Assembly: GCA_003598975.1 (NCBI GenBank)
Contig: QZIJ01000020.1
Location: forward strand, 1 to 64,000
DNA: 64,000 nt
DNA from: Anaerolineaceae bacterium
Lineage (GTDB): Bacteria; Chloroflexota; Anaerolineae; Anaerolineales; Villigracilaceae
Direction: 5' to 3'
Below the pieces are notes generated by a model. It did no database searches. It saw only the letters and a program-made list of their open reading frames with translations, and was not told where the DNA came from. This document shows, in pieces, positions 42,663-61,134 of the stretch. The first letter of the stretch is position 1. Each line of letters opens with the position of its first letter. The position numbers and the translations under genes are program-made.

Positions 42663-43454
42663 ATGGGCAAACCCCTTATCCCAGCACAAAGGCGAGAACG
42701 GATTCAAGACTATCTGGCGGTGCATCAGATCGCGCGGATTACCGATTTATGCACGTTGCTGGACACTTCTGAAGCGACGATTCGCCGCGACCTGGAATGG
42801 CTCGAAGCAGATGGGATTTTGGAGCGGACTCACGGGGGGGCGATCATCAACCAGCGCCTGACAGCGGAACCCGAATACTTGCAACGCGTACAAAAGAATC
42901 CAGAAGAGAAACGAGACATCGGCGCGCTAGCCGCTTCTTTGATAGAAGACGGCAACATTGTTTTTATCAACAGTGGGACAACGACTACGCAGGTGATTCA
43001 TCACATCCGCGCGGACGCGGGCATCACCGTGTTTACCAATAATCTGAACGCGGCACTCGAATTGGGCGAAGCGGGTTTCCAACATTACATCCTTGGCGGT
43101 GAGTACCAGCCGCGCTCCAAATCCTCGGCGGGACGATTTGCCATCGAAAGCCTGCGCCAGATTTATGCTGACGTTGCTATCATCGGCGTGGACGGGATCA
43201 GCCTGAAGCACGGATGCACGGTCCCTGTCAACGCGGAGGCGGAAGTGGTGCGCCAGATGATCGAACGCACGAAGGGCAAGGTCATCATTGTGGCGGACCA
43301 CAGCAAATGGGGTGTGGTCTCCAATTTCCAGATCGCATCGATTGACGAGATTGACCTGCTTGTCACCGATGGGCGGTTCGATCCCTCAGCCATCGAGGAA
43401 CTCGCAGAGCATGACGTTGAGACGGTAATTGCGCGTGCGGAAGTACATACGTAG
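42663..43454 (+). CDS. DeoR-family transcriptional regulator
   Basis: The 263-residue regulator has the DeoR HTH (RRERIQDYLAVHQIARITDLCTLLDTSEATIRRDLEWLE) and an effector domain of the ribose-phosphate-isomerase-like fold (FINSGTTTTQVIHHI). DeoR proteins usually sense sugar phosphates. It is the first gene of the plus-strand block, so it may control the methylamine genes downstream or the opposing genes. Confidence 0.93.
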   Translation: MGKPLIPAQRRERIQDYLAVHQIARITDLCTLLDTSEATIRRDLEWLEADGILERTHGGAIINQRLTAEPEYLQRVQKNPEEKRDIGALAASLIEDGNIVFINSGTTTTQVIHHIRADAGITVFTNNLNAALELGEAGFQHYILGGEYQPRSKSSAGRFAIESLRQIYADVAIIGVDGISLKHGCTVPVNAEAEVVRQMIERTKGKVIIVADHSKWGVVSNFQIASIDEIDLLVTDGRFDPSAIEELAEHDVETVIARAEVHT

Positions 43455-43520
43455 ACAGATGCACAGGTAAACAGGTTTGCACGTCACTTGTTTACCTGTG
43501 TACTTGTATACCTGCCTACT
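43451..43520. repeat. ACAGGTAAACAGGT-type repeat, copy 1
   Basis: CACAGGTAAACAGG is mirrored by TTGTTTACCTGTGTACTTG. A second copy lies at 49678-49757. Confidence 0.8.
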
Positions 43521-43532
43521 CACGGAGTACAG

Positions 43533-44528
43533 ATGAAATTCTTTTCCAAAAAATCCAGCAAGAAACCCACCCGTCTCTTTTTCGCCACCGACCTGCATGG
43601 ATCGGAGAGGACGTTTCGCAAATTCATCAATGCGGGCAAATTCTACGAGGCGAATGTCATTGTGATGGGTGGGGACATTCAAGGCAAGTTGTTGATTCCG
43701 ATCATCAAGGAAGCAAACGGACATTATCGCGCCACTCTTCAGGGACGTGTGGAGCACCTGGCTTCGCAGGAGGAATTGACGGGACTTACCACGCGGCTGG
43801 ATACGCTTGGCTTTTATTACAAAGTGATGGAAGAGGATGAGTTCCGCGCGCTGTCCGCCGACCAGAAGGCCGTGGATGTGTTGTTCCATGAAGAAGCACG
43901 CAAGAAACTTGGCCGCTGGGTTGATTTGGCCGAGGAGAGACTCAATGGCACGGGCATCAAGTGCTTCGTCACGGGCGGGAACGACGACGAGTGGGACGTG
44001 TTGTCCGCATTGAAGCGCGAGGGTGTGCAATCGCTCATCGCCTGTGAGAATGAAATGGTGATGGTGGATGACGACCACTCGATGATTTCCGTCGGCATCA
44101 GCACGCCGACTCCGTGGAAGACGCCGCGCGAGACGACCGAGGAGGAACTCGGAAAAATGATCGAAGAGATGGCTGCGAAAGTGCCAGACATGCAGAAAGC
44201 CATCTTCAACTTCCACGACCCGCCGAAAGACTCGACGCTCGACACCTGTCCGATGCTGGATTGGACGAAGGACCCGCCGACGCAGATCGTTCAGGGCGGG
44301 CAGGCCGTCATGCATGGCGCGGGCAGTTCCTCGGTCCGCGCGGCGATCGAGAAGTACAGTCCGATGCTCGGGTTGCACGGACACATCCACGAATCACAGT
44401 CTGTTGCGAAGATTGGTCGAACCACGTGTATCAATCCAGGCAGCGAGTATGGAGAGGGAATCTTACGCGGCTGTCTGGTGAATTTTGTGGACGGCGAGAT
44501 TCAGGGGTATCAGATGACAAGCGGATAA
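43533..44528 (+). CDS. Calcineurin-like metallophosphoesterase, first copy
   Basis: The 331-residue protein has RLFFATDLHGSERTFRKFINAGKFYEANVIVMGGDIQGK (dimetal motif D-x-H...G-D) and later GLHGHIHES and INPGSEY. I chose ATG 43533. The longer frame reads through an intergenic repeat. A paralogue lies at 53892-54830. Both are directly upstream of an APC permease. Confidence 0.9.
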   Translation: MKFFSKKSSKKPTRLFFATDLHGSERTFRKFINAGKFYEANVIVMGGDIQGKLLIPIIKEANGHYRATLQGRVEHLASQEELTGLTTRLDTLGFYYKVMEEDEFRALSADQKAVDVLFHEEARKKLGRWVDLAEERLNGTGIKCFVTGGNDDEWDVLSALKREGVQSLIACENEMVMVDDDHSMISVGISTPTPWKTPRETTEEELGKMIEEMAAKVPDMQKAIFNFHDPPKDSTLDTCPMLDWTKDPPTQIVQGGQAVMHGAGSSSVRAAIEKYSPMLGLHGHIHESQSVAKIGRTTCINPGSEYGEGILRGCLVNFVDGEIQGYQMTSG

Positions 44529-44629
44529 TTTTTGAAAGCCAATCGAGGAGGCAGTTATGTCGTGATGCAAGGTCAGTAGAAAGTTTTCAATCGCAATGTT
44601 TGAAATTTTCGACCCAAAGGAGAACAGCA

Positions 44630-46258
44630 ATGGCTACTGCTACGGCAAAACCTGAAGTTTTCACCCGAAAAGCCTCGGGCTTGGTACGTGTCATGTCTCC
44701 GTTCTCGGCCTTCGTTTACAACATCCTGACGATGGGCTTGATCTTCCCTTGGACGTACCTGTGGGCACCTGGCGCGCTCCCTGGCGGCAAACTGGTATGG
44801 GGCATTTTGCTGGCGATGGTGATCGAAATTCCGATTGCCCTTGTGTACGTCTGGCTGTCCACCGCGCTCCCGCGCTCGGGCGGCGACTATGTGTTCCAAA
44901 GCCGCGTGTTCGGTGGCGGCGTGGCGTTTACGGTTGTGATGTCTGGGTACGTGATCTGGATCCTGCAATGGGTGGCGCTTTCGGGCTGGCTGCTTTCGTA
45001 CCTCGGATTCGCCCCGCTCTTCCTCGGGCTGGGCGCGACTACGGGAAGCGCGGCCATGTCTGGACTCGGAATCTGGTTCACCACCTCGACGGGTATCATC
45101 ATCACGAGCATTTTGAACGCCTTCGTGGCGGCGCTCATTCTCGTCAGCGGATTCAAGAACTACGTCCGCTTCCAGACCGTGATGATCGTCGGCACCCTCC
45201 TCGCCTTCCTGACCATGCTGGTTGTGCTGTTCACTGCCAACCCAGCCACCTCGATGGCCAGCATTGACGCCTTCGCGTTGAAGATCGCGGGCGCGCAGAA
45301 TTTTGTGCAGACCGCGATTGACGCCTCAGTGGCCGCGGGCGTTGAACTGAACCCGCCCTTCAGTCTGATCGCCACCCTGCTCGTCGCACCCATCGCGTGG
45401 ACATCCCTGCAATGGGCGACCTACTCTGCCCAGCAGAACGGCGAGATCAAGAACGCGCGCTCGTTCAACAGCCAGTTGTTCATCATCGTTGGCTCGCTGA
45501 TCTTCACCGGCGTGCTGCTGGCCATCCTGGCTGCCGCGCTGGAAAAGGCGGTTGGCACTGAATTCCTGTATGTTGCCGGAGCAGGCTACTGGCTTGGCCT
45601 TGACGAGGCATTAATCTCCGGTTTCTATCTATGGCCCAATATGATTGCGGTCGCGCTCGCAGCCAGTCCTCTCATTGTTCTGTTGATTGGCGTTGGGTAC
45701 ATCTTGAACTCTCATCAGATTGTTCACAACTGCTACATTGGCATGACGCGCGTCATGGTGGCCATGTCGCTCGACCGCCTGCTTCCTGAATGGGTCAGCA
45801 AAGTGGATGAGAAACGTCACACCCCCGCCAACGCGCACTGGGCTTATTTCATCGCCAGCATTCCCGTCATCCTGCTCTACAACCTGTATCCGGGCTGGGT
45901 CGGGCTGACCCTCGGCGTGACCTTTGCCTGCGGCTACGTGTTCGTCATCACCTGCCTGGCTGGGTCGCTCCTGCCCTATCGCGCCAAGGATGTGTACGAG
46001 GCTTCCCCGGGCGCCAAATACAAGATCGGAAACGTTCCGTTGGTCACCATTCTCGGCGCCATCGGTTTCGTTCTCGGCAGCGTAATGGTGATGATGTTTA
46101 TGCTGTATCCGCAACTTGGCCTCACCAGCACACTCGCGTACATCGTGGTGTTTGGCGTGTTGGTATTCTCGGCCATCTGGTATTTCATCGTCAAGAACGC
46201 GCAGAAGTCCAAGGGCATCAATGTGGATTACGCGTTCAAGGAGATTCCGCCCGAGTAA
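44630..46258 (+). CDS. APC-superfamily amino-acid/amine permease, first copy
   Basis: The 542-residue protein follows AAGGAGA and has about twelve membrane helices. The opening FTRKASGLVRVMSPFSAF is shared with the second APC gene (RKASGLVRAWSVFDAF). Location beside demethylation genes suggests uptake of a quaternary amine or amino acid. Confidence 0.92.
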   Translation: MATATAKPEVFTRKASGLVRVMSPFSAFVYNILTMGLIFPWTYLWAPGALPGGKLVWGILLAMVIEIPIALVYVWLSTALPRSGGDYVFQSRVFGGGVAFTVVMSGYVIWILQWVALSGWLLSYLGFAPLFLGLGATTGSAAMSGLGIWFTTSTGIIITSILNAFVAALILVSGFKNYVRFQTVMIVGTLLAFLTMLVVLFTANPATSMASIDAFALKIAGAQNFVQTAIDASVAAGVELNPPFSLIATLLVAPIAWTSLQWATYSAQQNGEIKNARSFNSQLFIIVGSLIFTGVLLAILAAALEKAVGTEFLYVAGAGYWLGLDEALISGFYLWPNMIAVALAASPLIVLLIGVGYILNSHQIVHNCYIGMTRVMVAMSLDRLLPEWVSKVDEKRHTPANAHWAYFIASIPVILLYNLYPGWVGLTLGVTFACGYVFVITCLAGSLLPYRAKDVYEASPGAKYKIGNVPLVTILGAIGFVLGSVMVMMFMLYPQLGLTSTLAYIVVFGVLVFSAIWYFIVKNAQKSKGINVDYAFKEIPPE

Positions 46259-46328: not shown

Positions 46329-47231
46329 ATGGCAATCATTGACGAGGTCGTTGCGAAAATCGAAGATTGGAAAGACAAGACCATTTCTGTCCAGCAGATC
46401 TCAGGCGGGTTGACCAACACCAACTTCAAAGTTGAAGTGGATGGGATGCCGTACTTTGTCCGTGTGCCAGGCGAAAGCACGGAATTGTTGGCGGTGGATC
46501 GCAACAACGAATATCACAACTCAAAAGCCGCGGCGGAGGCGGGTGTCGGACCGAAGGTCTTATATCATTTGCCCGAATACAACGTGATGGTGCTGGATTT
46601 TTTGACGGGGATAACGATGTCAAAGGAATCATTGAACGTGCCAGGCATGCCGACGCGCATGGCGAAAGTGATCAAGAAATTGCACGCTGGCCCTCGCTTC
46701 TTTTTGGACTTCAACATGTTCCGCCTGACCGAATATTATTTGAATATCTGCGCCGAACGCGACATCCGCATCCCCGATGGTTATCACGACCGAATGCCAA
46801 CCGTCGCGAGAATCGAACAGGCGATGAACGTCAAGCCGCTGGCGACTGTCCCGTGCAACAATGACCTGCTTGCCGAAAATTACATTGACGACGGCAAGCA
46901 TCTCTGGCTGATCGATTACGAATACAGCGGCAACAACGACCCGACTTTCGAGTTGGGCAACACCTGTCAGGAAATGCAATTTGACGAGGCGCGCATCCAT
47001 GAAGTGTGCACCGCGTATTTTGGAACGGATTCGCCTGCGATGATTGCTCGGATGAAATTGAACATGATCATGTCCGATGTGGGCTGGGGATTATGGGCGG
47101 CAATCCAAGTGAATATTTCAAAGATCGAATTCGATTTCTGGGGCTGGGCTATCGAACGGTGGGGACGTGCTGTCGAAAAAATGGATTCGACGGAGTTTCC
47201 CACCTGGCTGAAAGAAGTTCAAACATCGTAG
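46329..47231 (+). CDS. Choline-kinase/APH-like phosphotransferase, second copy
   Basis: The 300-residue kinase-fold protein has SGGLTNTNFKVEVDGMPYFVRVPG, a catalytic loop NNDLLAENY, and LIDYEYSG. In the catalytic loop the usual His is Asn, while the key Asp and Asn remain. It is 15 bases before the second DMGDH-like gene. Confidence 0.9.
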   Translation: MAIIDEVVAKIEDWKDKTISVQQISGGLTNTNFKVEVDGMPYFVRVPGESTELLAVDRNNEYHNSKAAAEAGVGPKVLYHLPEYNVMVLDFLTGITMSKESLNVPGMPTRMAKVIKKLHAGPRFFLDFNMFRLTEYYLNICAERDIRIPDGYHDRMPTVARIEQAMNVKPLATVPCNNDLLAENYIDDGKHLWLIDYEYSGNNDPTFELGNTCQEMQFDEARIHEVCTAYFGTDSPAMIARMKLNMIMSDVGWGLWAAIQVNISKIEFDFWGWAIERWGRAVEKMDSTEFPTWLKEVQTS

Positions 47232-47246
47232 AAACGCGGAGGAACC

Positions 47247-49676
47247 ATGAAAGACCAGGCACAAATTGTAATCATCGGCGGAGGGATTGTCGGCGCGCAG
47301 GTTGCCTATCACCTTGCCAAAATGGGGCGGAAGGACATTGTCCTGTTGGAAAAAGGCGAGATTGCCAGCGGCGAGTCGTCACATGCGGCGGGACTGGTGA
47401 CGCAGTTCGCCACGTCACAGACCATGCTCAAGTTCCGCATGTACAGTATCGAACTGTACAGTGAGTTGGGTTTGTTCGATCACTGCGGAAGTCTGCGCGT
47501 CGCGTCCACGAAGGAGTCGCTCCTCGATTTGGAGCGAAGCGTTAGCCGCGCCAAGGCTTTGGGGTTGGAGTGCGAAGTCATCGGGCGGGACGAGGCGGTC
47601 AAGCACATGCCGCAGATTACGGACAAGGAACTCTACGGCGCGATCTATTTGCCGCGCGATGGCCAACTTGATCCGTACACGGCCACGACTAGCATGGTCA
47701 AGTTTGCCAAAGATCTCGGCGTGACAGTCTACACCAACACGCGCGTGACGGGTATTAAAGTTTCAGCGAAGGGGGAGATCAGCGAGGTGGTGACAGACAA
47801 AGGTTCGATTCGATGCGAGTTGGTCGTCAATGCCGCGGGAATGTGGGCGCCGCGCATCGCCGCAATGGCGGGACTGTATTTCCCAACCACGCCCGTTGAT
47901 CATCAGCACATCGCACTGAAAGCCGTCCCAGGTCACGAATTTAATTCCAAGACGCCGTGTTTGCGCGACCCCGAAAATTTGGTTTACATGCGGCAGGAAC
48001 AGGGCGGACTTGTCATCGGCGGCTACGAGCCGAATCCGCTGGCGCGTTGGGTGGACGGCGCGCCGTGGGAGCATGGCGGGACGACTCTCCCGTCCGATAT
48101 GGATCGCTTCGAGCAACTGCTCGAGGGCGCGATCCGCCGTTTGCCGTTCCTCGATCAGGCGGGCATCATCACGTTAGTCTGTCACCCTGGCGCTTACACC
48201 CCCGATTGTCAGCCTGTGCTAGGACCGATGGCGGGCGTGCGCGGCATGTGGATGGCGGCGGGCTTCTCGCTTAATGGCTACGGCGGCGCGGGCGGCGTGG
48301 GCAAAGTGCTGGCCGAGTGGATTATCGGCGGCGAGCCGACCATGGATGTGTACCAATATAAGGCGACGCGTTTCAGCAACTACTACAACGATCCGCTTTA
48401 CGCCGCGGAGCGGACGCGCGAGAGCGTGAAGTATTACTACCGCCTGCGCTTCCCGAACGACGAGTTCGAGTGGGCGCGTCCGCATCGGATGAGTCCTGTC
48501 TATCATCGCCAGTTGGAGATGGGCGCGGTATTCGGCGAAAAATTTGGCTGGGAGCGCGTCAACTACTACAACCCAGGCAAACCCTCGCGCCGCATGGGCG
48601 AGGACCAGCGCAATTGGGGCGGATGGGTCAAGCCACCGTACTTTGACCGCATCGAAAAGGAACACGTCGCCACGCGAGAACGCGTCTGCCTCTATGACCT
48701 GACGCCGTTCAGCAAGATCGAAGTGACGGGTGCGGGCGCGTTGGCTTTGTTGAACCGCGTCGCCGTCAGCGAAATGGACAAACCCATCGGCAGCGCAACC
48801 TACACCCAATTCTGCAACACGAACGGCGGCGTCGAAGCAGATGTGACGGTGACGCGTCTCGGTGCGAACCGTTTCTGGGTCATCACGGGCGCGGCCTTTA
48901 TCGGCAACGATCGCTCGTGGCTGGAGATGCATGTGGACGAGGCCGATGGCGAAGTGAACATCCGCGACGTCTCTGAAGAGTGGGCGTGTCTCCCGCTTTG
49001 GGGTCCGAAGGCGCGCGAGGTCTTGAAGAAAGTCACCAACGACGATGTCTCGAATGAAGCACATCCGTATCTGATGACGAAGCCAATTTCGATCAACGGC
49101 GCGAAGATTTACGCCCAGCGCGTCAGTTACGCGGGCGAACTCGGCTGGGAGTTGTATGTCCCCTACAATCGTGCCACAATGGTCTGGGATATGCTGCTCG
49201 AAGCAGGCAAGGAATTCGGCATCGAAGTCGGCGGCTACAAAGTGCTGGACGCGTTGCGGCTCGAAAAGGGCTATCGCTATTACACCGCCGATGTGACCCA
49301 ACTCGAAACGCCCTACGAAGGCGGCCTCGGTTTTTGCGTGGACTTGAACAAAAAAGACTTCATCGGCAAGGCCGCACTTGCCAAACAGAAAGCCGAAGGC
49401 GTGAAGCGCAAACTCTGCACGCTGGTTGTGGATGGGAACGCATTCACGCAAATCTACGGCGGCGAGGCCATCTACCACGAAGGCAAAGTTTTGACCCGTG
49501 TCCGCAGCGGCGGATGGGGCTATACTGTGAAGAAAAACATTCTCTACGCCTACCTGCCCATCGAACTTGCCAAAGTTGGCAACCGTTTTGAAGCGGAGTT
49601 GATCGAAGGCCGCAAGATGGTGGAAGTGACCGCCACGGTGTTGTTCGATGCGAAGGGCGAGCGCTTGCGCGCGTAA
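47247..49676 (+). CDS. DMGDH/sarcosine dehydrogenase-like flavoprotein, second copy
   Basis: The 809-residue protein has the same two-part layout as the first copy: FAD motif IIGGGIVGAQVAYHLAKMG and a GcvT-like half. It starts 15 bases after the kinase-like gene. Its neighbours (Rieske oxygenase, MttB) suggest successive demethylation steps from betaine-like compounds to glycine. Confidence 0.92.
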   Translation: MKDQAQIVIIGGGIVGAQVAYHLAKMGRKDIVLLEKGEIASGESSHAAGLVTQFATSQTMLKFRMYSIELYSELGLFDHCGSLRVASTKESLLDLERSVSRAKALGLECEVIGRDEAVKHMPQITDKELYGAIYLPRDGQLDPYTATTSMVKFAKDLGVTVYTNTRVTGIKVSAKGEISEVVTDKGSIRCELVVNAAGMWAPRIAAMAGLYFPTTPVDHQHIALKAVPGHEFNSKTPCLRDPENLVYMRQEQGGLVIGGYEPNPLARWVDGAPWEHGGTTLPSDMDRFEQLLEGAIRRLPFLDQAGIITLVCHPGAYTPDCQPVLGPMAGVRGMWMAAGFSLNGYGGAGGVGKVLAEWIIGGEPTMDVYQYKATRFSNYYNDPLYAAERTRESVKYYYRLRFPNDEFEWARPHRMSPVYHRQLEMGAVFGEKFGWERVNYYNPGKPSRRMGEDQRNWGGWVKPPYFDRIEKEHVATRERVCLYDLTPFSKIEVTGAGALALLNRVAVSEMDKPIGSATYTQFCNTNGGVEADVTVTRLGANRFWVITGAAFIGNDRSWLEMHVDEADGEVNIRDVSEEWACLPLWGPKAREVLKKVTNDDVSNEAHPYLMTKPISINGAKIYAQRVSYAGELGWELYVPYNRATMVWDMLLEAGKEFGIEVGGYKVLDALRLEKGYRYYTADVTQLETPYEGGLGFCVDLNKKDFIGKAALAKQKAEGVKRKLCTLVVDGNAFTQIYGGEAIYHEGKVLTRVRSGGWGYTVKKNILYAYLPIELAKVGNRFEAELIEGRKMVEVTATVLFDAKGERLRA

Positions 49677-49677
49677 G

Positions 49678-49757
49678 GAAGTACACAAGTACACAGGTAT
49701 ACACGTAAACACGTTCACCCACCTGTGTACTTGTTTACCTGTGTACGTGTCTACGAA
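49678..49757. repeat. ACAGGTAAACAGGT-type repeat, copy 2
   Basis: GTACACAAGTACACAGGT is mirrored by ACCTGTGTACTTGTTTACC. It matches the element at 43451. Confidence 0.8.
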
Positions 49758-49784
49758 CTTTATCGGTTTGAAAGGAAATCACGA

Positions 49785-51041
49785 ATGTTATCTCTCACTA
49801 CAAATGAAATCGCCACTCTCAAAAGTATCATCGCCTCCCGCCAGCCCAATTTTGGATTGACGCGGCCGTTCTATCACGATGATCTGCTCTACCGTGCCGA
49901 GATGGAATTTGTCTGGCGCGCGGGTTGGCTCTTCGCGGGCCACTCGTGCCAGATTCCCAGCGCGGGCGATTACTTCCTTTACGAGGTGGATGGCGATTCG
50001 CTCATCATTGTCCGCGATGACAATGGACAGGTGAACGCGTTCTACAATGTCTGCCGACACCGCGGATCAGTGATTTGTCAGGAGGCGGAGGGACACGTCA
50101 AGCGTTTCATCTGTCCCTACCACCAGTGGACGTATGGCCGCGATGGCCGTCTCATGCTGGTGCGCGGGATGCAGGAAGAGTTGGACAAGTCGCAGTATGG
50201 CTTGCATCGCGCCCATGCCCGCGAAGTGGAAGGCATGATCTGGGTCAGTCTCGCCAAAGAACCGATGGACTTTGACGCCGCGTACGAGACCATCGCGCCC
50301 GTCGCGCGTCCGCAGGGACTGACGCGTGCCAAAGTTGCGAAGATCATGGATTTCGATGTCCACGCCAATTGGAAACTCGTCTGGGAGAACAACCGCGAGT
50401 GTTATCACTGCAACGTCAACCACCCGCAGTACACCAAGGCCAATTTCGATCACTACAACACAGATGACACCATCCCGCGTATCGCCGAGGAACTGGATCG
50501 GGTGACGGAACGGCTCGAAGTCAAGTTGGCCGCGCAGGGAATGACGATCCGCTCCGAGACGGGCATGACTCCGTTCCCCGATCCCGATAACGGAATTTGG
50601 TGGGGTGCGAATCGCACCCCGCTGGTGGAAGGTTTCGTCAGCGAGACGATGGACGGTCAGCAGGTCGCGCCGCTGATGGGCGATTACACCGACCCCGAGG
50701 TCGGCACGATGCGAGTCCGCACCCTGCCCAATTTCTGGATCCATGCCAGTTGCGACCATGCCGTGTCCGTGCGATTGACTCCCACGAGTCTCGATCACAC
50801 CGCAATCCGCATGATCTGGCTGGTAGATGAAAAAGCCGAAGAAGGCAAAGATTACGATCTCGACAAACTACTTCCCTTCTGGCTCATGACTGCCGAGCAG
50901 GACTGGGGCATTTGCGTGAACCAGCAGAAAGGTGTGAACTCCAGCGTATATACGCCAGGCCCGCTTTCAGTGTATAAAGAATACAACCTTGACCGCTTCC
51001 TGCGTTGGTATTTGCAGGAGATGAATGAAGCGATTGGATAG
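49785..51041 (+). CDS. Rieske non-haem iron oxygenase
   Basis: The 418-residue oxygenase alpha subunit has the Rieske motif C-R-H...C-P-Y-H (YNVCRHRGSV..RFICPYHQWTYG) and the iron site ENNRECYHCNVNHPQY. It resembles glycine-betaine/carnitine/stachydrine demethylating enzymes such as GbcA. No reductase partner is in the window. The ATG at 49785 is used because the longer frame starts inside a repeat. Confidence 0.9.
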   Translation: MLSLTTNEIATLKSIIASRQPNFGLTRPFYHDDLLYRAEMEFVWRAGWLFAGHSCQIPSAGDYFLYEVDGDSLIIVRDDNGQVNAFYNVCRHRGSVICQEAEGHVKRFICPYHQWTYGRDGRLMLVRGMQEELDKSQYGLHRAHAREVEGMIWVSLAKEPMDFDAAYETIAPVARPQGLTRAKVAKIMDFDVHANWKLVWENNRECYHCNVNHPQYTKANFDHYNTDDTIPRIAEELDRVTERLEVKLAAQGMTIRSETGMTPFPDPDNGIWWGANRTPLVEGFVSETMDGQQVAPLMGDYTDPEVGTMRVRTLPNFWIHASCDHAVSVRLTPTSLDHTAIRMIWLVDEKAEEGKDYDLDKLLPFWLMTAEQDWGICVNQQKGVNSSVYTPGPLSVYKEYNLDRFLRWYLQEMNEAIG

Positions 51042-51043
51042 GA

Positions 51044-52120
51044 TTGAATTTGAATAAACTTGATTACGTTGGATTTGGAATGCTCACCCCCGTCGCCATC
51101 ATGACCGTGGATCGCTTCCCGCGTCACAACACGGGCGCGATGGTGAAGGAGATCAAGGAATTCGTGTTTGACGACGCCGCCATCATTGCGGGCTGTCTCA
51201 GCCAGTGGGGAGTTTCCACAGGCATGATTGGCACCGCCGTTGGCGATGACCCGCGTGGACATGCTCTGGCGCGTCAACTGGAGGATCTGGGCGTGCAGGC
51301 GGACGTCCGCTTCACGAAGGCGTACGCGACCCCGCTCGAAGTGGATGTCTCCGACCGACGCGGGGCGCGTACCTACTTCTGGCAGCGGACTCCCGAAATG
51401 CTTGCCACTCTTGACGAGGCCGATCTCTCGCTGATGGAGGGGGCGCGTCTGATGTACGTGGACTGGTACGATGGCGAGGAGCATATCACGCGTGCCATGG
51501 AAGAAGCGAAGCGTTTGGACGTGCCAGTGTTTCTTAATTTGGAGTTTGGTCACAAGGATGTCAATCTCCTCAAGCGATACGCGAAGTACACCACCATCTG
51601 CCAGGCCGTCACCGACGCCGCGCAACTTGGCAAGAACAAGTCCCTGATGCAGACAGCCCGTAAACTGCTCAACGCAGGCATCAAAACCGCGCTGATCACC
51701 ATGGCAAAGGAGGGCTGTCTCGTGGCGCAGGGAAGTGAGATCGTGCGCGTCTTTGCCCCGAAGGTCAAGGCCGTGGATGCGTGCGGCGCGGGCGCGACCT
51801 TCTCTGCTGGATTCGCGTACGGCACGTTGCAGGGCTGGGGCATCGAACATTCGGCGCGTTTCGCCACCGCCGCGGCCTCGCTCAAGGTCACGCGCGCGGG
51901 TTTGGAGATGTTCCCTATTGATGAAATTCATGCGGTGGCCGAGCGTCTCAAAGTGGAATATCTGACCTTCCGCGACAACCAGTTCCACCGACTTGGAAAA
52001 TTGATCTCTGTCCAGCAAAAAGTGATTGTCCATGAAAGCCGCAAACTGGTCAGGCACGCCGCGGATAGTCTGAATTCCAAAAAGCGCGCTTCCCAAAAAT
52101 CCGCCGCCAAACGCAAGTGA
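51044..52120 (+). CDS. PfkB-fold protein with altered GAGD motif
   Basis: The 358-residue protein has the ribokinase/PfkB fold with a late motif DACGAGATFSAGFAYG. The usual GAGD, whose Asp is the catalytic base, reads GAGA here. It may be inactive as a kinase or may use another residue. Start is TTG 51044 or the in-frame TTG at 51050, which has AGGAT ahead of it. It abuts the Rieske and MttB genes. Confidence 0.85.
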   Translation: MNLNKLDYVGFGMLTPVAIMTVDRFPRHNTGAMVKEIKEFVFDDAAIIAGCLSQWGVSTGMIGTAVGDDPRGHALARQLEDLGVQADVRFTKAYATPLEVDVSDRRGARTYFWQRTPEMLATLDEADLSLMEGARLMYVDWYDGEEHITRAMEEAKRLDVPVFLNLEFGHKDVNLLKRYAKYTTICQAVTDAAQLGKNKSLMQTARKLLNAGIKTALITMAKEGCLVAQGSEIVRVFAPKVKAVDACGAGATFSAGFAYGTLQGWGIEHSARFATAAASLKVTRAGLEMFPIDEIHAVAERLKVEYLTFRDNQFHRLGKLISVQQKVIVHESRKLVRHAADSLNSKKRASQKSAAKRK

Positions 52121-52185: not shown

Positions 52186-53628
52186 ATGGAATTTGCAACT
52201 TTACTGACCCCTGAGCAAGTCCAACGCGTTCACGATGCCTCGCTGGAGATTCTCGCCAATGTCGGTTTACTGGTGCGGAGCGAGAAAGCGCGCGCCCTCT
52301 TTGCAAAGCATGGATGCAACGTGGACGCGGAGACGCAGATCGTCAAGTTTCCGCCTGCGCTAGTGGAAAAGTATCGCAAGATGCTCCCACCGACGTTTAC
52401 TTTCCGTGGACGCGATCCCAAATTTGACCGCACCATCCCGACCGATGGGCCGATACTCGTCACGGGCAGTTCCGCTCCCGATCTGATTGACCCGCTCACA
52501 GGTCGCGAACGACGCGCCCGCTCGGACGATATCGCACGTATCGCGCACCTCGTCAATGAGTTGCCCGCCTACGATGTCTTTTCCGTCTCCACGCTCGCGG
52601 ACGACGCGCCCGACGGCCAGTTCACGCTGGCGCGCTTGTATCCCGCACTGAAACATTGCGTCAAACCCATCCGCTCGACAACGAAGGATCAGGAAGACAC
52701 CGACGCGGTCATGCGGATGCTGTTTACCATGGCGGGAAGCGAAGCCGCCTACATGGAGCGTCCATTCGTGACGCATCATTACTGCCCCGTGGTTTCCCCG
52801 CTGACGATGGATCATCTCTCTACTGACGCGGTCATTTATTTCAGCGAGAAGGGACTGCCCGTTTACCCGACTATTGTCCCCAACGCGGGGTTGACCTCGC
52901 CTATGTCCATGGCGGGGACGCTGGCGCAGGGCAACGCGGAATTCCTCGCGGCCGCGGTGCTGATGCAAATGGCGCGCGAAGGCACGCCGACGATCTACGC
53001 CACGCTCCCCACCGTCGCGGACATGCGGACAGGCGCGTACGCCTCGGGCGGAATCGAGTGTGGGATGCTGGTGATGGCCTTTGCTCAGATGGCGCATTTT
53101 TACAATGTGCCCAGCGGCGGCTACATCGGCTTGACCAATTCCAAGATCAACGACGCCCAATCGGGTTACGAGACGGGCATGTCGGTCGTAGCCAGTTTCC
53201 TCGGCGGCGCGGACATGTTCAACACGGGTGGCCTGCTCGACGCGCTCAAGGCGTTTGATTTTGCCAAGGCCGTCATTGACGATGAAGTCTTCCAGATGCT
53301 CAAGCGGATGAAGCGCGGCATCGCGTTCAATGAGGAGGAACTCGCGCTGGATGTGATCGCCAAGGCCGGACCAGGGGGCGCGTTCATGATGCAACCCCAC
53401 ACTGCCAAGCGCATGAAGACCGAGGCCCTGCTCACCAAACTCTCCGACCGCGAGGCGCGCACTATCTGGGAGAAGAAAGGCGCATCGGATACACACTCAC
53501 GCGCCATGGCACGCGCCAGTGAGATTTTGTCCAAGCCAAGCTCGGTCGTGTTTTCCGACGAGGTCGAGTCACGTATCCGCGCCGAGTTCCCGAATCTGGT
53601 CGCGGGAAATCTGGAAATGCCGAAATAA
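52186..53628 (+). CDS. MttB-family methyltransferase, non-pyrrolysine
   Basis: This 480-residue COG5598/MttB-family protein starts at ATG 52186 after AAGGA. GTG 52117 is a longer alternative. It has no in-frame amber codon, so it is not a pyrrolysine enzyme. Non-Pyl members such as MtgB demethylate quaternary amines like glycine betaine and pass the methyl to a corrinoid protein. No corrinoid protein or reductive activator is visible in the window. Confidence 0.9.
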   Translation: MEFATLLTPEQVQRVHDASLEILANVGLLVRSEKARALFAKHGCNVDAETQIVKFPPALVEKYRKMLPPTFTFRGRDPKFDRTIPTDGPILVTGSSAPDLIDPLTGRERRARSDDIARIAHLVNELPAYDVFSVSTLADDAPDGQFTLARLYPALKHCVKPIRSTTKDQEDTDAVMRMLFTMAGSEAAYMERPFVTHHYCPVVSPLTMDHLSTDAVIYFSEKGLPVYPTIVPNAGLTSPMSMAGTLAQGNAEFLAAAVLMQMAREGTPTIYATLPTVADMRTGAYASGGIECGMLVMAFAQMAHFYNVPSGGYIGLTNSKINDAQSGYETGMSVVASFLGGADMFNTGGLLDALKAFDFAKAVIDDEVFQMLKRMKRGIAFNEEELALDVIAKAGPGGAFMMQPHTAKRMKTEALLTKLSDREARTIWEKKGASDTHSRAMARASEILSKPSSVVFSDEVESRIRAEFPNLVAGNLEMPK

Positions 53629-53891: not shown

Positions 53892-54830
53892 ATGAAACTA
53901 TTTTTTGCCACTGATGTGCATGGCTCCGAGATCTGCTGGAAAAAATTCATCAACGCCGCAAAATTTTATGAGACGGACACCCTCATCCTCGGCGGGGACA
54001 TGACGGGCAAGGCCATCATCCCCATCATCGCGCAGGGCGGGGACAAATACAAAGTGACCCTGCTCGAGCAGGAGTCCATTCTCGAGGGCAAAGATGCCGT
54101 GGATAAAATGGTCGCGACGATTCAGAACCGCGGCTATTATCCCTATGTGACAACACCCGACGAAGTGAACGAGATCTCCACAATCCCTGGCCGCTCGGAT
54201 GCGCTCTTCATGGACCAGGTGATGGCTACCGTTGCCCGTTGGATGGATTACGCTGACACGAAACTCGCGGGGACGGGCATCCGCTGTATGGTCTGCCCAG
54301 GCAACGATGACGTCTTCGAGATCGACGCGGCTATCGCGGCGTCCAAATCGGTGCGAAGCGTGGAGGGACAGGTCATCCAACTGGACGAGCATCACGAGAT
54401 GGTCAGTTCGGGCTGGACAAATCCGACTCCGTGGGATACCCACCGCGAGGAGGGGGAGGAGGCGTTGTTGTCCCGTCTCGAAGCGGTCATCTCGCAGGCG
54501 AAAAATCCTGCCAGCGCGGTGTTCAATCTCCACGCGCCTCCCTACGGAAGCGGTCTCGACGAAGCACCCGAACTGACAAAGGATCTGCGCCCCGCCTACG
54601 CGGGCCGTTCGCTCGTGCCAGTCGGAAGCAAGTCGGTACTGAAAGTCATCGAGAAATATGAGCCGATACTCGGCCTGCATGGACACATCCATGAGGGCAA
54701 GGGCACGCGCAAATTCAAGAAGACCCTGTGCATCAATCCTGGAAGCATGTACGAACAGGGAGTTTTGCATGGGGCGGTTGTGGAACTCAAACCGAACAAA
54801 GTTGGCAATTACGTTTTGACAACTGGTTAA
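53892..54830 (+). CDS. Calcineurin-like metallophosphoesterase, second copy
   Basis: The 312-residue paralogue of the gene at 43533 shows FFATDVHGSEICWKKFINAAKFYETDTLILGGDMTGK and GLHGHIHEG..INPGSMYEQG. The dimetal ligands are conserved. It again precedes an APC permease. The substrate is unknown. Confidence 0.9.
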   Translation: MKLFFATDVHGSEICWKKFINAAKFYETDTLILGGDMTGKAIIPIIAQGGDKYKVTLLEQESILEGKDAVDKMVATIQNRGYYPYVTTPDEVNEISTIPGRSDALFMDQVMATVARWMDYADTKLAGTGIRCMVCPGNDDVFEIDAAIAASKSVRSVEGQVIQLDEHHEMVSSGWTNPTPWDTHREEGEEALLSRLEAVISQAKNPASAVFNLHAPPYGSGLDEAPELTKDLRPAYAGRSLVPVGSKSVLKVIEKYEPILGLHGHIHEGKGTRKFKKTLCINPGSMYEQGVLHGAVVELKPNKVGNYVLTTG

Positions 54831-55012: not shown

Positions 55013-55038
55013 GAATCATTTTTCAAAGGAGAATGCAG

Positions 55039-56889
55039 ATGAGTGAAGTCAATCTCTTCGTCCGCAAGGCAAGCGGACTCGTCCGAGCCTGGTCGGTGTT
55101 CGACGCGTTCATTTACGCCACCTTTTCGATCAACCTGATCACGCTCGGTCTTTTCATTTTCTCGTACTGCTGGTACTTCGAAGGCAGTCTTGGCACGGCA
55201 GTGGTGGTGGGCGGCGCGTTTACCATCTTCGAGGTCATCGTTTATGCCAGCCTGATCTCGGCCATGCCGCGCGCGGGCGGTGACTACGTCTGGCAGAGCC
55301 GCATCCTCGGACGCGGCATCGGCTTCCTGCTCAGCGTTACTGGCTGGTGGTTTATCCTGTGGCTGTGGGTTCCGCTCTACGGCCAGATGCTGACCTATGA
55401 ATTCCTCACGCCCATGGCCGCCCTGCTTGGCGCGCCCGATTTGGCGCTGTGGTTTACCACCTATCCGTGGGGGCCGCTGGTGGGCATGTTGCTGGTCTGT
55501 CTCATCGTGTTCATCTACATTGCCATCGGCATGAAGTGGTATGCGCGCGTCCAGAAGGCCAGTTTCTACATGGGCATGCTCGGTCTTCTGATCGTCTTTG
55601 CCCTCCTGCTCTTCAATGACAAGGAGACCTTCATCGCGGCCCTCAATGCCAATCTGCCCGCGGTTTACGGTCTTCCTGCCATGGACTACTATTCCGCCAC
55701 CATTGCTGCGGGCGAGGCAGCTGGCACCACCTTTGGATCGCTTGGCGTCATCGCCCTCGGCGCTTCGATGGCGATGGTCCCGATGATGACGTTCTTCAAC
55801 CTGTGGCCGAACTGGGGCTCCACACTCTACGGTGAAGTGCGCGGCGCGACGGACTACAAACGCAACTTCTGGGGCATGGCCGCGGCCATCATTGTGACGG
55901 CTGGCCTCGCGCTCATCTTCTTCTTCCTGATAGATAAGACGATGGGCTGGGACTTCTACATCAACGCCAACGGCGCGTTCTGGAGCAGTATCTTCTACGG
56001 GACGGAAGTTCCGATTCCCGTCTGGCCGTATCCCGTCCAGTTCGCATCCTTCCTGACGGGGAGCCGCGCTCTGCAACTGATCATCATCTTCCTCGTGGGG
56101 ATGTGGTGGTTCGGCTGGAGCGGCACGGTCTTCCTCTCCTCGACGCGCGTCATCTTCGCTGCCGCCCTCGACCGCATGTTGCCCGAATGGGTCTCCAAGA
56201 TCGAGCCGCGCACGCGCACCCCGATCAACGCGCTCCTGCTGATGGTGATTCCCTCGGTGATCATTTCCATTCTCTACGCCTGGAACATTGTTGAATTCCA
56301 GACCATTGTGCTGGATGCCACCCTCGTCATCGCGGTGACTTTCTTTGGGACGACTCTGGCGGGCATCCTGCTCCCGTGGCGGCAGAAGGAGATCTTCGAC
56401 GGCTCACCGATTGCACGTTATATCATGCCCTCCTGGTTGAGTTGGCTCGTGACCGTTCTCTTCGTGGGCGCGGCGGGCTACCTCATCTGGCTGACGGTGA
56501 ACCTCGGTGGACAGGTCTTTGCCGTGTTCGGTGAGCAGACCCTGCTGACGCAGGCCATCATTGCCCTGCTCGCCATTTTGAGCGTGGGCAACGCTGTGTT
56601 GCTGGTCTATGTGGTGGTGTTCGTCGGCCAGAAAGTGCTGGCTGGACAAAGTCTCCCGCTCATCACGGTGGCTGGTCTTGTCTTCTTCGCCTTCCTGGAC
56701 TGGCTGTTGGTGGTCTGGTTCTGGGATCCGTCGTATTACTATGGCATCGGCTGGCAAAACAGCACCTCGATGGTCTTCATGATCATCATGTACGCGCTTG
56801 CCGCGGCCATCTACTTTGGCTTCAGTTCGTATCGCAAGCGCCAGGGTATTGACGTGGACAAGGTGTACAAGGAGATTCCCGTCGAGTGA
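55039..56889 (+). CDS. APC-superfamily amino-acid/amine permease, second copy
   Basis: The 616-residue protein starts at ATG 55039 after AAAGGAG. It has twelve or more membrane helices and shares the RKASGLVR opening with the first APC. It ends the second metallophosphoesterase-permease pair. A hairpin without T-run follows at 56925-56955. Confidence 0.92.
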   Translation: MSEVNLFVRKASGLVRAWSVFDAFIYATFSINLITLGLFIFSYCWYFEGSLGTAVVVGGAFTIFEVIVYASLISAMPRAGGDYVWQSRILGRGIGFLLSVTGWWFILWLWVPLYGQMLTYEFLTPMAALLGAPDLALWFTTYPWGPLVGMLLVCLIVFIYIAIGMKWYARVQKASFYMGMLGLLIVFALLLFNDKETFIAALNANLPAVYGLPAMDYYSATIAAGEAAGTTFGSLGVIALGASMAMVPMMTFFNLWPNWGSTLYGEVRGATDYKRNFWGMAAAIIVTAGLALIFFFLIDKTMGWDFYINANGAFWSSIFYGTEVPIPVWPYPVQFASFLTGSRALQLIIIFLVGMWWFGWSGTVFLSSTRVIFAAALDRMLPEWVSKIEPRTRTPINALLLMVIPSVIISILYAWNIVEFQTIVLDATLVIAVTFFGTTLAGILLPWRQKEIFDGSPIARYIMPSWLSWLVTVLFVGAAGYLIWLTVNLGGQVFAVFGEQTLLTQAIIALLAILSVGNAVLLVYVVVFVGQKVLAGQSLPLITVAGLVFFAFLDWLLVVWFWDPSYYYGIGWQNSTSMVFMIIMYALAAAIYFGFSSYRKRQGIDVDKVYKEIPVE

Positions 56890-57052: not shown

Positions 57053-57152
57053 ACTTTCGATAATGAAAGGAGGCTTCCAAAGAGAATACTTTTAGATGAC
57101 CGTCCGCTCCAAACGCAAAATTTTCAAAACTCGCATTTCAAAGGAGAGAAAG

Positions 57153-58319
57153 ATGTCATCAAGCAATTCCAACAAAATGTCTCGCCGCGATTTCCTCAAA
57201 CTGGCAGGAACCACTGCCGGCGCTATGGCTTATTTGACGGCTTGCGGCCAGAGTGGCGGTGGCGGTGGCGCTGCTGGTCCTGATCTGACAAGTGGCGAAT
57301 CAATTCCCCTGGATGATTTGATTGCGGCCGCCAAGGCGGAAGGCGAATTGACCACCATTGCGTTGCCGCACGACTGGGCCAACTATGGTGAAATGCTCGA
57401 AACCTTCAAGACCAAATATGGCCTGACCGTCAACGAACTGAACCCCGATGCCGGCTCCGCGGACGAACTGGAAGCCATCCGCGCCAATAAGGAAAGCAAG
57501 GGCCCGCAGGCACCGGATGTGATCGACATCGGTGTGGCTCATACCGAGACTGCCATGAAAGACGGCCTGGTGGCCAAGTACAAGAATGCCAACTGGGACA
57601 CCATCGAGATGAAAGACCCCGATGGCTATTGGTGGGCCGAGTATTACGGCGTGTTGGTCTTCGAGGTGGTCAAACCCGACATCGTCGAATCCCCGAAGGA
57701 TTGGGAAGACCTGCTCAGACCGGAATACAAGGGCAAGGTGGCCATGGCTGGCGACGTGCTCAAGTCCAACCAGTCCGTGCAAACGGTGCTGGCGTCCGGA
57801 CTTTCCCGCACCGGCGGCGACATCACCAAGGCGGCTGAAGCCGGCCTGCAGTTCTGGAAGGAAATGAACGAATCGGGCAATTTCATCCCCGTCATTGCCG
57901 ACCAGGGACGCATCGCCCAGCGCGAGACTCTCATCGTTATGGAATGGGACTATCTGGCCCTCGCCAACCGCGATTCTCTGGCGGGCAACCCCGAACTGGA
58001 GATCATTGTGCCTGAGACGGGCGTTCTGGCCGGACCGTATGCCGGCGGCATTAGCGCTTACGCTCCGCATCCGTACGCCGCCCGCCTGTGGTGGGAGTTC
58101 GTCATGTCGGACGAAGGGCAGAACATCTACCTCAAGGGTTATGCCCATCCGATCCGCTTCAACGACATGGCCAAGCGCGGCGTCATCCCGCAGGAAATGC
58201 TGGATAAACTGCCGCCTGCCGCTGCCTACGAGAAGGCCTTCTTCCCGACCATCGCTCAACTGACCGAGACCAAGACTTACATCACTGAGAATTGGCGTCG
58301 AGTCGTGTTCGGCGAGTAA
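57153..58319 (+). CDS. ABC transporter substrate-binding lipoprotein, Tat-type signal
   Basis: The 388-residue protein starts at ATG 57153 after AAAGGAG. A twin-arginine motif (SRRDFLKLAG) precedes a hydrophobic stretch and a lipobox-like LTACGQ, so it is likely a Tat-exported lipoprotein. The mature part is a family-1 extracellular binding protein close to PotD and iron(III) binders. It is followed by a hairpin before the permease genes. The ligand is not defined by sequence. Confidence 0.92.
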   Translation: MSSSNSNKMSRRDFLKLAGTTAGAMAYLTACGQSGGGGGAAGPDLTSGESIPLDDLIAAAKAEGELTTIALPHDWANYGEMLETFKTKYGLTVNELNPDAGSADELEAIRANKESKGPQAPDVIDIGVAHTETAMKDGLVAKYKNANWDTIEMKDPDGYWWAEYYGVLVFEVVKPDIVESPKDWEDLLRPEYKGKVAMAGDVLKSNQSVQTVLASGLSRTGGDITKAAEAGLQFWKEMNESGNFIPVIADQGRIAQRETLIVMEWDYLALANRDSLAGNPELEIIVPETGVLAGPYAGGISAYAPHPYAARLWWEFVMSDEGQNIYLKGYAHPIRFNDMAKRGVIPQEMLDKLPPAAAYEKAFFPTIAQLTETKTYITENWRRVVFGE

Positions 58320-58372: not shown

Positions 58373-58396
58373 CCAAGCAGTTGAAAGGAGTTGATT

Positions 58397-59281
58397 GTGA
58401 ACGTTGCAGACAACCTTTCCAAACCTCCTGTCAAAAAAATGAACTGGGATTGGGTTGGGGTCGCACCTTTTTTCATATTTGCGATCGTCTTCCTCTTCCT
58501 GCCTTCCCTTTCCATTTTCTATCGAAGTTTCCAGGCCAATGATGGCGGTTTTACTTTTGACAATATCATTGCCCTGTTTACCGTGCGTGACATTATCAAT
58601 GCCTATAAGACCAGCCTGCAGATCAGCCTGATCACAGCCGTGGGAGGCGCGGTCTTCGGCTTCCTGCTGGCTTACGCGGTGGTGCTGGGAGGCTTGCCGC
58701 GCGGCATCCGCACGTTCATGTCCACATTTTCGGGTGTGGCTTCGAACTTCGCGGGTGTTCCGCTGGCCTTTGCCTTCATCGCCACCATGGGCAATGCCGG
58801 GCTGGTCACACGCTGGATCGAAGGAATTTTCAACATCAGCACCCGTGAATTGGGCTTCAGCATCTACAACATGTGGGGGCTGAGCATCGTTTACATGTAC
58901 TTCCAGTTCCCGTTGATGGTATTGATCATGGCACCCGCCCTGGACGGTCTGCGCCGTGAATGGCGTGAAGCCGCCGAAAACCTGGGCGGGAACACATATC
59001 ATTATTGGCGCTATGTGGCTTTTCCAATTCTGATGCCTTCCCTGCTGGGGACGATGATCCTGCTTTTTGGCAATGCCTTCGGCGCGTACGCGACCGCTTA
59101 CGCCTTCTCGGGCAGTTTCATCAACCTGGTCACAATTCTCATCGGCGCGCAAATTCAGGGTGATGTGCTTTATAACCCGGGTCTGGGTAACGCCCTGGCG
59201 CTGGGAATGATCTTTATCATGGGCCTTAGCATGGCTGGGTATGTCTGGATGCAGAGGCGTGCCGCGAGGTGGATGCGATGA
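58397..59281 (+). CDS. ABC transporter permease, PotB-like
   Basis: The 294-residue membrane protein has about six helices and the EAA loop (REWREAAENLGGNTYHYWRYVAFPILMPSLLG). GTG 58397 lies six bases after AAGGAG and is preferred over the TTG at 58391. Its stop overlaps the next start (ATGA). Confidence 0.92.
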   Translation: MNVADNLSKPPVKKMNWDWVGVAPFFIFAIVFLFLPSLSIFYRSFQANDGGFTFDNIIALFTVRDIINAYKTSLQISLITAVGGAVFGFLLAYAVVLGGLPRGIRTFMSTFSGVASNFAGVPLAFAFIATMGNAGLVTRWIEGIFNISTRELGFSIYNMWGLSIVYMYFQFPLMVLIMAPALDGLRREWREAAENLGGNTYHYWRYVAFPILMPSLLGTMILLFGNAFGAYATAYAFSGSFINLVTILIGAQIQGDVLYNPGLGNALALGMIFIMGLSMAGYVWMQRRAARWMR

Positions 59282-60057
59282 AAAAGATCAACATCTGGGC
59301 CTGGATCATCCTGTTCATTGGAATGATCTATTTCTTCCTCCCGCTCATTTCCACGCTGGAATTCAGCATGAAAATGATCAAGGACCGCTACACCTTCGAG
59401 GCGTTCCGCGTTGCCTTTACCGATCGCGTTTTCTTCGAACGCTTTGGGTATTCGGTGCTGTGGGCGCTCCTGACCATCACCTTAAGCACATTGCTGGTGG
59501 TGCCGACGGCTTATTGGGTGCATTGGAAACTCCCCAAGGCGCGTCCTTTTGTGGAATTCGTGACGCTCATGCCGTTCGTGGTCCCCGCGGTCGTGTTGAC
59601 CTTTGGCTTCATCCGCCTGTATGCGCGCCCTCCGTTTTTCCTCAATGATCGTCCAATTTTGTTGATTGCCGGTTACATCATTCTCTCGTTACCTTACATG
59701 TTCCGCGCAGTGGATACGGGATTGCGCGCCATAGATGTCCGCACCCTGACGGAAGCGGCTCTCAGCCTTGGGGCCGGGTGGGGGACGATCCTAACGCAAG
59801 TCATTTTCCCAAACCTGCGGGTGGCGATCCTGAGCGGCGTCTTTCTTACCTTCGCCATCGTCATGGGCGAATTCACCTTTGCGTCCCTATTGGCGAAGCC
59901 GGCTTTCGGCCCCTACATGGAGGAGATCGGCTCAATGCGCGCCTACACACCGCAGGCGCTTTCACTGGTCAGTTTCCTGCTGACCTGGGCTTCCATTGGC
60001 CTTTTACAGTGGATCGGACGCGGCCGCGTGCAGGAACAGGTTGCAGGCGCGCACTAA
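59278..60057 (+). CDS. ABC transporter permease, PotC-like
   Basis: The 259-residue second permease has about six helices and the EAA motif TEAALSLGAGWGTILTQVIFPNL. The start at ATG 59278 overlaps the previous stop. It pairs with the PotB-like subunit to form the channel. Confidence 0.92.
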   Translation: MKKINIWAWIILFIGMIYFFLPLISTLEFSMKMIKDRYTFEAFRVAFTDRVFFERFGYSVLWALLTITLSTLLVVPTAYWVHWKLPKARPFVEFVTLMPFVVPAVVLTFGFIRLYARPPFFLNDRPILLIAGYIILSLPYMFRAVDTGLRAIDVRTLTEAALSLGAGWGTILTQVIFPNLRVAILSGVFLTFAIVMGEFTFASLLAKPAFGPYMEEIGSMRAYTPQALSLVSFLLTWASIGLLQWIGRGRVQEQVAGAH

Positions 60058-60072
60058 TCAAGCGAGGATATC

Positions 60073-61134
60073 ATGGCATTCCTGGAAATCAACAACGTCA
60101 GCAAGAAATTTGGCGCTACAGAAGCAGTCAGCGACTTCAATCTCCAAATCGAAAAGGGTGAATTGGTCTCCTTCCTCGGCCCCAGCGGATGTGGAAAAAC
60201 AACCACATTGCGCATGGTGGCAGGGTTCGAGATGCCCACCGATGGGCGGATCGTGATGGATGGCAAGGATATTACGGACATGCCAGCCAACCAGCGTGAT
60301 GTGGGAATGGTCTTCCAATCTTATGCGCTGTTCCCCAACATGACCGTGGCGGGCAACATCGGCTTTGGCCTCAAGATCATGAAAAAATCGGCTGAAGAGA
60401 CCAACCAGCGCACCAAAGAAATGCTGGACTTGATCAACATGCCCGAGTACGCCCACCGCTACCCCTACCAACTTTCGGGCGGACAGCAGCAACGAGTGGC
60501 TTTGGCGCGCGCCCTGGCGCTCCGCCCCGACGTGCTCCTGCTCGATGAACCGCTCTCCGCTCTCGACGCGAAGATCCGCGTCTCCCTGCGCGCCGAGATT
60601 CGCGACATCCAGCGCAAACTTGGCATCACAGCCATCTACGTCACCCACGACCAGGAGGAGGCGCTGTCGCTTTCGGACCGCGTGGTGGTGATGAACGCGG
60701 GCAAGATGGAACAGGTTGGCACGCCCTTCCAGATCTACAATTTCCCTGAGACCAATTTCGTGGCAAGTTTCGTCGGCACGCTGAACACTGCCGAAGCCGA
60801 AGTGGTTGATCCTGCTCGCGGTCTGATCAGCATGGACGGCGTCCAGTTCGTTTCTGCAGATGACCTGAATGGCAGGAAAAAAGGCGACAAGGTACGCATG
60901 TCCGTCCGCCCGGAGCGCTTCAATTTTGCCGATGATCAGAAGAAGGACAATTTGTTGGACTGCACCATTGAAAATATCACTTTCCTCGGCTCGGTCGTTC
61001 GTATTCAGGTGAAGATCGGCAAGACTGTCTTCAACATGGACACCTTTAACAATCCCTTCCTCGAATTGCCGAAGATTGGCGACAATGGACAGGTCACTTG
61101 CTCAAAGGAAGCAGTGCTGGTGATAAGCCACTAA
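60073..61134 (+). CDS. ABC transporter ATP-binding protein, PotA-like
   Basis: The 353-residue ATPase has Walker A GPSGCGKTT, signature LSGGQQQRVALARALALRP, Walker B LLLDEPLSALD and H-loop VTHDQEEAL, and a C-terminal TOBE-type domain. It completes a polyamine/iron(III)-type importer with the preceding three genes. Confidence 0.95.
   Translation: MAFLEINNVSKKFGATEAVSDFNLQIEKGELVSFLGPSGCGKTTTLRMVAGFEMPTDGRIVMDGKDITDMPANQRDVGMVFQSYALFPNMTVAGNIGFGLKIMKKSAEETNQRTKEMLDLINMPEYAHRYPYQLSGGQQQRVALARALALRPDVLLLDEPLSALDAKIRVSLRAEIRDIQRKLGITAIYVTHDQEEALSLSDRVVVMNAGKMEQVGTPFQIYNFPETNFVASFVGTLNTAEAEVVDPARGLISMDGVQFVSADDLNGRKKGDKVRMSVRPERFNFADDQKKDNLLDCTIENITFLGSVVRIQVKIGKTVFNMDTFNNPFLELPKIGDNGQVTCSKEAVLVISH

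Follow-up and report, generated by a model that had tools for sequence, protein, structure and literature searches.

A conserved, probable PfkB-fold pseudokinase lacking the catalytic Asp in a putative glycine betaine demethylation cluster of Chloroflexota

A conserved protein of the PfkB/ribokinase fold in Chloroflexota has lost the catalytic Asp of the GAGD motif together with further active-site motifs, and we consider it moderately probable that it is a ligand-binding pseudokinase, which would act as an accessory or regulatory protein in the one-carbon metabolism of glycine betaine/dimethylglycine. The pseudokinase reading is carried by the motif losses, the grouping in the tree, the selection on the gene, the predicted fold and the gene order. 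The gene is located in the window, which is the whole stretch of 64,000 nucleotides analysed here (Anaerolineaceae bacterium, contig QZIJ01000020.1), with the following features:

51044..52120, forward strand: PfkB/ribokinase-fold pseudokinase (Pfam PF00294, predicted model, ribokinase-fold structural alignment); start probably TTG 51050
51785..51796, forward strand: GAGA codons, Ala251 replacing the catalytic Asp (codon reading, phmmer and family alignments)
51992..52117, forward strand: basic C-terminal tail, residues 317-358, with a predicted helix 317-355

The product of the ORF 51044-52120 (+) comprises 358 amino acids, has PF00294 (PfkB) as its sole Pfam match (E 2.3e-28, 99.9 bits against a cut-off of 25.8) and belongs by fold and descent to the PfkB/ribokinase family. 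Its motif region is VDACGAGATFSAGF, in which Ala251 occupies the position of the Asp of GAGD. The codons GGC GCG GGC GCG at 51785-51796 encode GAGA (residues 248-251), and in phmmer alignments Ala251 lies opposite the catalytic Asp of solved kinases, and in the family alignment opposite D255 of E. coli RbsK. The other three PfkB matches of the same genome all have GAGD. As start codon, TTG 51050 probably fits better than TTG 51044, because the sequence AGGA (51040-51043) is located six bases upstream of it. Since TTG 51050 lies just past the stop of the preceding Rieske gene, translational coupling is suggested.

A close orthologue is present in 15 of 61 related genomes, that of the window included, with 59-91% identity to the window protein. 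GAGA is found in all 15 sequences of one alignment, and the 15 reading frames are intact. A scan covering one genome per species, in which 80 of 87 loci were kept, extends this to further genomes, which we take to be Chloroflexota throughout; some of the scan loci (L handles) belong to the same genomes as those with G handles. The scan patterns were the family's own motifs with the GAGA motif excluded, and they reach close relatives only, so that a distant GAGD sister could be missed. Among the 79 loci with a readable motif (the gene of L125 is cut by the contig end before the motif and was left out), 76 have GAGA, two AAGA and one ASGA, and no Asp is present at this position in any of the 79 or in the window. 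Ala251 therefore stands in 80 of 80 aligned orthologues, i.e., the 79 loci and the window. Family-profile searches identified a second Chloroflexota clade, from another family of the same class (clade II), with GAGA in six of six sequences (L148-L153). A homologue on a plasmid of Nocardia farcinica is 28% identical and has CAGA; a plasmid search with it as query matched only itself. The Rhizobium homologue L130 was rejected as a pseudokinase, being an ordinary GAGD kinase. GAGA instead of GAGD, as noted in the initial annotation, is thus borne out by the codons and the alignments. The same annotation had proposed to check whether orthologues next to MttB share the change, which all 79 readable loci and the window do, and had regarded GAGD orthologues as a sign of an error or isolated mutation; none occur among the 80 orthologues, the six clade II sequences and the Nocardia homologue.

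The gene is under purifying selection. Its dN/dS is 0.088 against the nearest relative G005 (neighbouring genes 0.055-0.100), 0.160 against G004 (neighbours 0.069-0.160) and 0.142 against G023 (neighbours 0.091-0.188), and dS is saturated against G002. A decaying relic would begin with the loss of several catalytic motifs, as seen here, but the recurrence of this Ala in all 79 readable loci, whose genomes were assembled separately, the intact frames of 15 orthologues and a dN/dS of 0.09-0.16 where dS is unsaturated make a relic or a sequencing or assembly error hardly credible, and conservation in effect refutes it. A sequencing error or lone mutation is ruled out by the Ala in 15 of 15 orthologues and 79 of 79 loci.

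The fold itself is that of the ribokinase/PfkB sugar kinases, such as RbsK (1rkd) and YihV (7ag6) of E. coli, and matches 1rkd as a whole (residues 3-303, Z 27.9). A first model (pLDDT 76.7) aligns to ribokinase at Z 29.0 over 291 residues, and a second one (AF2, mean pLDDT 88.5, pTM 0.84) matches a putative sugar kinase in Foldseek at E 9.8e-23. In contrast to the ordinary kinases, 64 of 79 readable relatives carry a long basic C-terminal tail beyond the fold. Further differences are located in the active site, at these places:

51092..51094, forward strand: Val17, place of RbsK substrate Asp16 (V 74, A 3, C 1, gap 2 of 80)
51170..51184, forward strand: Asp43-Asp44-Ala-Ala-Ile47, place of the Gly-Gly hinge and substrate Asn (alignment)
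51602..51616, forward strand: Gln187-Ala-Val-Thr-Asp191, region of the lost NxxE motif (alignments)

The residue alignment comprised the 80 orthologues (79 loci and the window), six clade II sequences, the Nocardia homologue and 14 ordinary kinases, from which L155 (SAGE) and L029 (GAGN) were excluded because their base is not Asp. All 14 ordinary kinases have the base Asp, versus none of the 80 orthologues. The window family has also replaced the substrate Asp, the Gly-Gly, the substrate Asn and NxxE. At the position of RbsK Asp16, Asp is found in 13 of the 14 ordinary kinases. The N-terminal Gly-Gly hinge, whose Gly42 is present in nine of 14 ordinary kinases, is absent (Phe42/Asp43 in the window), and the substrate Asn46 of RbsK, which is present in just six of 14, is replaced by Ile47; D43, D44 and I47 each occur in 78 of 80 orthologues, the remaining two being gapped. 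At the aligned places of the NxxE metal/phosphate motif (Asn187 in eight and Glu190 in nine of 14 ordinary kinases), where the alignment shifts by 1-2 residues, neither Asn nor Glu is found in any of the 80. The nucleotide side of the cleft is shared with the ordinary kinases. The GAG anion hole is kept (G248 77/80, A249 79/80, G250 80/80), as are T219 and G224 of the nucleotide loop (each 80/80), the first loop Gly being Ala221 in 79 of 80, and the K+-site Asp is kept in the Chloroflexota members. The statement of the initial annotation that the rest of the fold seems whole hence applies to the fold (Z 29.0, pLDDT 88.5) and not to the active site, in which further motifs are changed, whereas its pseudokinase reading gains good support from the fixed loss of the Asp along with those of the substrate Asp, Gly-Gly, Asn and NxxE.

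In ketohexokinase-A, Asp258 is described as the catalytic residue (PMC11332825, PMC2651755), and replacing Asp15, Asn42 or Asn45 by Ala inactivates the enzyme (PMC11332825). Judged by motif spacing, these three residues would be equivalent to those replaced here. A weak or substrate-assisted PfkB kinase, which does not need the Asp base, would agree with the kept fold, GAG anion hole and Thr219/Gly224, and choline-kinase-like and phosphatase-like genes are nearby, so that phosphorylated intermediates may occur. However, the substrate Asp, Gly-Gly, Asn and NxxE are lost along with the base, and single losses of such residues already inactivate ketohexokinase-A (PMC11332825), which renders a weak kinase improbable. 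The fixed and selected loss of base, metal motif and substrate residues argues against kinase activity.

Besides these losses, 46 columns are invariant across 36 diverse members, among them Ala251, Ser254, Asp44, Arg109, Thr110, Phe112, Asp140, Trp141, Tyr142, Asn165, Glu167 and Gln187, and many of the near-invariant pocket residues are missing from ordinary kinases. Both the preserved nucleotide side of the cleft and these newly invariant residues point to ligand binding. Strict invariance would suit an enzyme too, and the main rival of the preferred reading is an active enzyme with changed chemistry, which either catalyses another reaction or is a kinase with a different base, via Asp43, Asp44, Asp140, Glu167 or His170; sequence cannot separate it from a ligand-binding pseudokinase. 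The near-invariant new pocket, the stable position among catabolic enzyme genes and the anion hole kept in nearly all orthologues are in line with such an enzyme. However, His170 and Asp43 are conserved in neither clade II nor Nocardia, the metal/phosphate motif NxxE has been lost, and no reaction of betaine demethylation is known to require an extra kinase; an active enzyme of this type is possible, though rather unlikely. It is likewise possible, though rather unlikely, that the PfkB cleft was rebuilt as a dedicated receptor, or as some new type of enzyme, whose ligand would be a quaternary amine or a one-carbon intermediate. The invariant acids and aromatics Asp44, Phe112, Asp140, Trp141, Tyr142 and Glu167, which replace sugar-binding residues, could then form a cation-binding cage, of which Trp113 may also be part in the MttB-linked clade.

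When the motif columns are left out of the tree, the two Chloroflexota clades still group together (support 98/91), and the Nocardia homologue joins this group with modest support (90/70) and on a long branch. L130 and L126b (misaligned fragments), L016 (the same protein as L160) and the long branches L029 and L018 were dropped from the final tree. Since the Asp-less sequences share a common tree group, a single loss of the Asp would be the simplest account, with Nocardia included on modest support. L029 (G052:C54, GAGN) and L155 (G333:C48, SAGE) are other PfkB-fold proteins with an altered base position, and L155 adjoins the Asp-less group on the tree.

In the window, the pseudokinase gene is part of a cluster, in which the MtgB-type MttB, the dimethylglycine dehydrogenase (DMGDH) and the uptake genes of a putative glycine betaine demethylation cluster are all found. 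The order is phosphoesterase-like, APC permease, choline-kinase-like, DMGDH/GcvT fusion, GbcA-like Rieske, pseudokinase, MttB, phosphoesterase-like, APC permease and ABC transporter, and the neighbours of the pseudokinase, all on the forward strand, are:

42663..43454, forward strand: DeoR-family regulator
43488..44528, forward strand: metallophosphoesterase-like protein (Pfam match below cut-off)
44561..46258, forward strand: APC-type permease
46329..47231, forward strand: choline-kinase/APH-like kinase (Pfam)
47247..49676, forward strand: dimethylglycine dehydrogenase-like FAD/GcvT fusion (484 bits to 5l46)
49725..51041, forward strand: Rieske oxygenase like glycine betaine monooxygenase GbcA (371 bits, cut-off 670)
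52186..53628, forward strand: MttB-superfamily methyltransferase (PF06253, 301 bits; ORF from 52117, ATG 52186 likelier)
53892..54830, forward strand: second metallophosphoesterase-like protein (Pfam match below cut-off)
55033..56889, forward strand: second APC-type permease (Pfam)
57096..58319, forward strand: ABC solute-binding protein (Pfam)
58391..59281, forward strand: putative ABC permease (position and synteny alone)
59269..60057, forward strand: putative ABC permease (position and synteny alone)
60073..61134, forward strand: ABC ATPase

The window MttB has no in-frame TAG and scores 240 bits to the glycine betaine methyltransferase (2qne/9yce) versus 171 bits to the trimethylamine MttB 7xcl. 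Each metallophosphoesterase-like gene (43488-44528 and 53892-54830) precedes an APC permease gene. Another DMGDH/GcvT fusion, which shares 44% identity with the first, is encoded at 38292-40724 (-), and a second choline-kinase-like gene at 36256-37185 (-), upstream of the cluster; the pairing of these two is kept in many relatives. Between the two DMGDH genes, near the DeoR regulator, a protein with four CBS-domain stretches is encoded at 40911-41720 (-).

The MttB neighbour named in the initial annotation is real and conserved: it directly follows the pseudokinase gene in 69 of the 75 scan loci that are testable, i.e., whose contig continues for 900 bases or more past the gene. The six exceptions are L062, L065, L088, L113 (MttB about 4 kb further on), L120 and L121. 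In L120, with no MttB on the contig, the gene is surrounded by genes for an aminotransferase, a formate-THF ligase, an MTHFR-like protein and a DMGDH. Directly upstream, a DMGDH (55 loci) or Rieske gene (4 loci) is found in 59 of 69 loci. After MttB, many relatives (L035 12164-13769, L042, L039, L040) have a DUF47 (PhoU-like) gene instead of the phosphoesterase-permease pair of the window, followed by a PHO4 phosphate transporter where the contig reaches. In clade II and Nocardia the homologue is not beside MttB, therefore the link to MttB is not common to the whole group. In all six clade II loci (L126, L127, L128, L161, L162, L163), the gene overlaps or directly adjoins the next one downstream, whose product is a putative membrane protein, and two of these membrane-like proteins that were scanned gave no Pfam match. 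On plasmid 2 of N. farcinica (L129, 7283-8930), a gene for a NUDIX hydrolase lies closely upstream of the homologue, and a radical SAM gene is located in the vicinity.

Among the 61 genomes, an MttB of at least 60% identity is present in 15 of 15 carriers of the pseudokinase versus three of 46 non-carriers (Fisher p 1.2e-11, a value that ignores relatedness, the genome counts not being independent). Two of these three, G040 and G053, have the same MttB, DMGDH and transport genes with linked genes for a corrinoid protein and RACo and are without the pseudokinase: their best PfkB matches reach at most 39% identity, and the profile found none in the stretches fetched. G056 likewise has MttB without the pseudokinase. 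These three genomes rule out a strictly necessary partner of MttB, and the pseudokinase is therefore regarded as accessory. Because of the linked corrinoid protein and RACo genes in G040 and G053, a replacement of the corrinoid protein or of the activase RACo by the pseudokinase was also considered. It is ruled out, as carriers have RACo in 15 of 15 and a B12-binding domain in 14 of 15 cases; the domain, which also occurs in larger proteins, is missing in carrier G005, whose genome is 88% complete. In L044 and L122 corrinoid and/or RACo genes are added at the locus, and in G010 (L044) pseudokinase, corrinoid protein and RACo genes are all linked.

The nearest precedents are the plant proteins FLN1 and FLN2, PfkB-fold parts of the plastid RNA polymerase complex, which are described as being without fructokinase activity (PMC9698557, PMC3409070). 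FLNs retain the Asp, as GSGD or A/QSGD, along with the GG motif (PMC9698557), whereas the window family has lost both, with GAGA in place of GSGD or A/QSGD, and its setting is bacterial one-carbon metabolism. The principle of a dead sugar kinase as ligand sensor is known from Gal3p, which binds ATP and its ligand and controls a partner (PMC3409070). Sensing by the pseudokinase would follow the same principle; Gal3p belongs to another kinase family (galactokinase), and the partner is a presumed one here. With the glycine betaine methyltransferase MtgB systems, the cluster shares the adjoining MttB, which is nearest to 2qne/9yce, and in some loci the corrinoid protein and/or RACo. The pseudokinase is an added gene in comparison, as the word kinase does not occur in the text on marine mtgBCD (PMC12478193).

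We infer ligand binding, the partner and the regulation of the pseudokinase as follows. An ancestral sugar or nucleoside kinase would have lost its phosphotransfer chemistry (base Asp, Mg/phosphate NxxE, substrate Asp, Gly-Gly and substrate Asn) and retained the fold, the GAG anion hole and the Thr/Gly positions of the nucleotide loop, and it would have gained a new invariant pocket (Asp44, Asn29-x-Gly31, Arg109-Thr110-x-Phe112, Asp140-Trp141-Tyr142, Asn165-x-Glu167 and Gln187). The most likely ligands of the cleft are a nucleotide and/or an amine or a one-carbon metabolite, and opening and closing of the lid may then regulate or assemble the adjacent MtgB-like methyltransferase and the dimethylglycine dehydrogenase.

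In the open-access literature available to us, most subscription journals lying outside the search, we found no description of a comparable bacterial PfkB pseudokinase and no paper that brings pfkB, mttB and glycine betaine together. The fixed loss of sugar-kinase chemistry, selected inside a betaine demethylation cluster, is a clean case of a metabolic fold that became a non-kinase component. Annotation pipelines tend toward "sugar kinase", a label that is probably incorrect for all genomes carrying the pseudokinase. If the cleft was indeed rebuilt for an amine or one-carbon intermediate, Chloroflexota and at least one actinomycete would harbor a bacterial PfkB family without any kinase function. 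If the protein is a ligand sensor, it would reveal a control of corrinoid- or folate-dependent demethylation in Chloroflexota.
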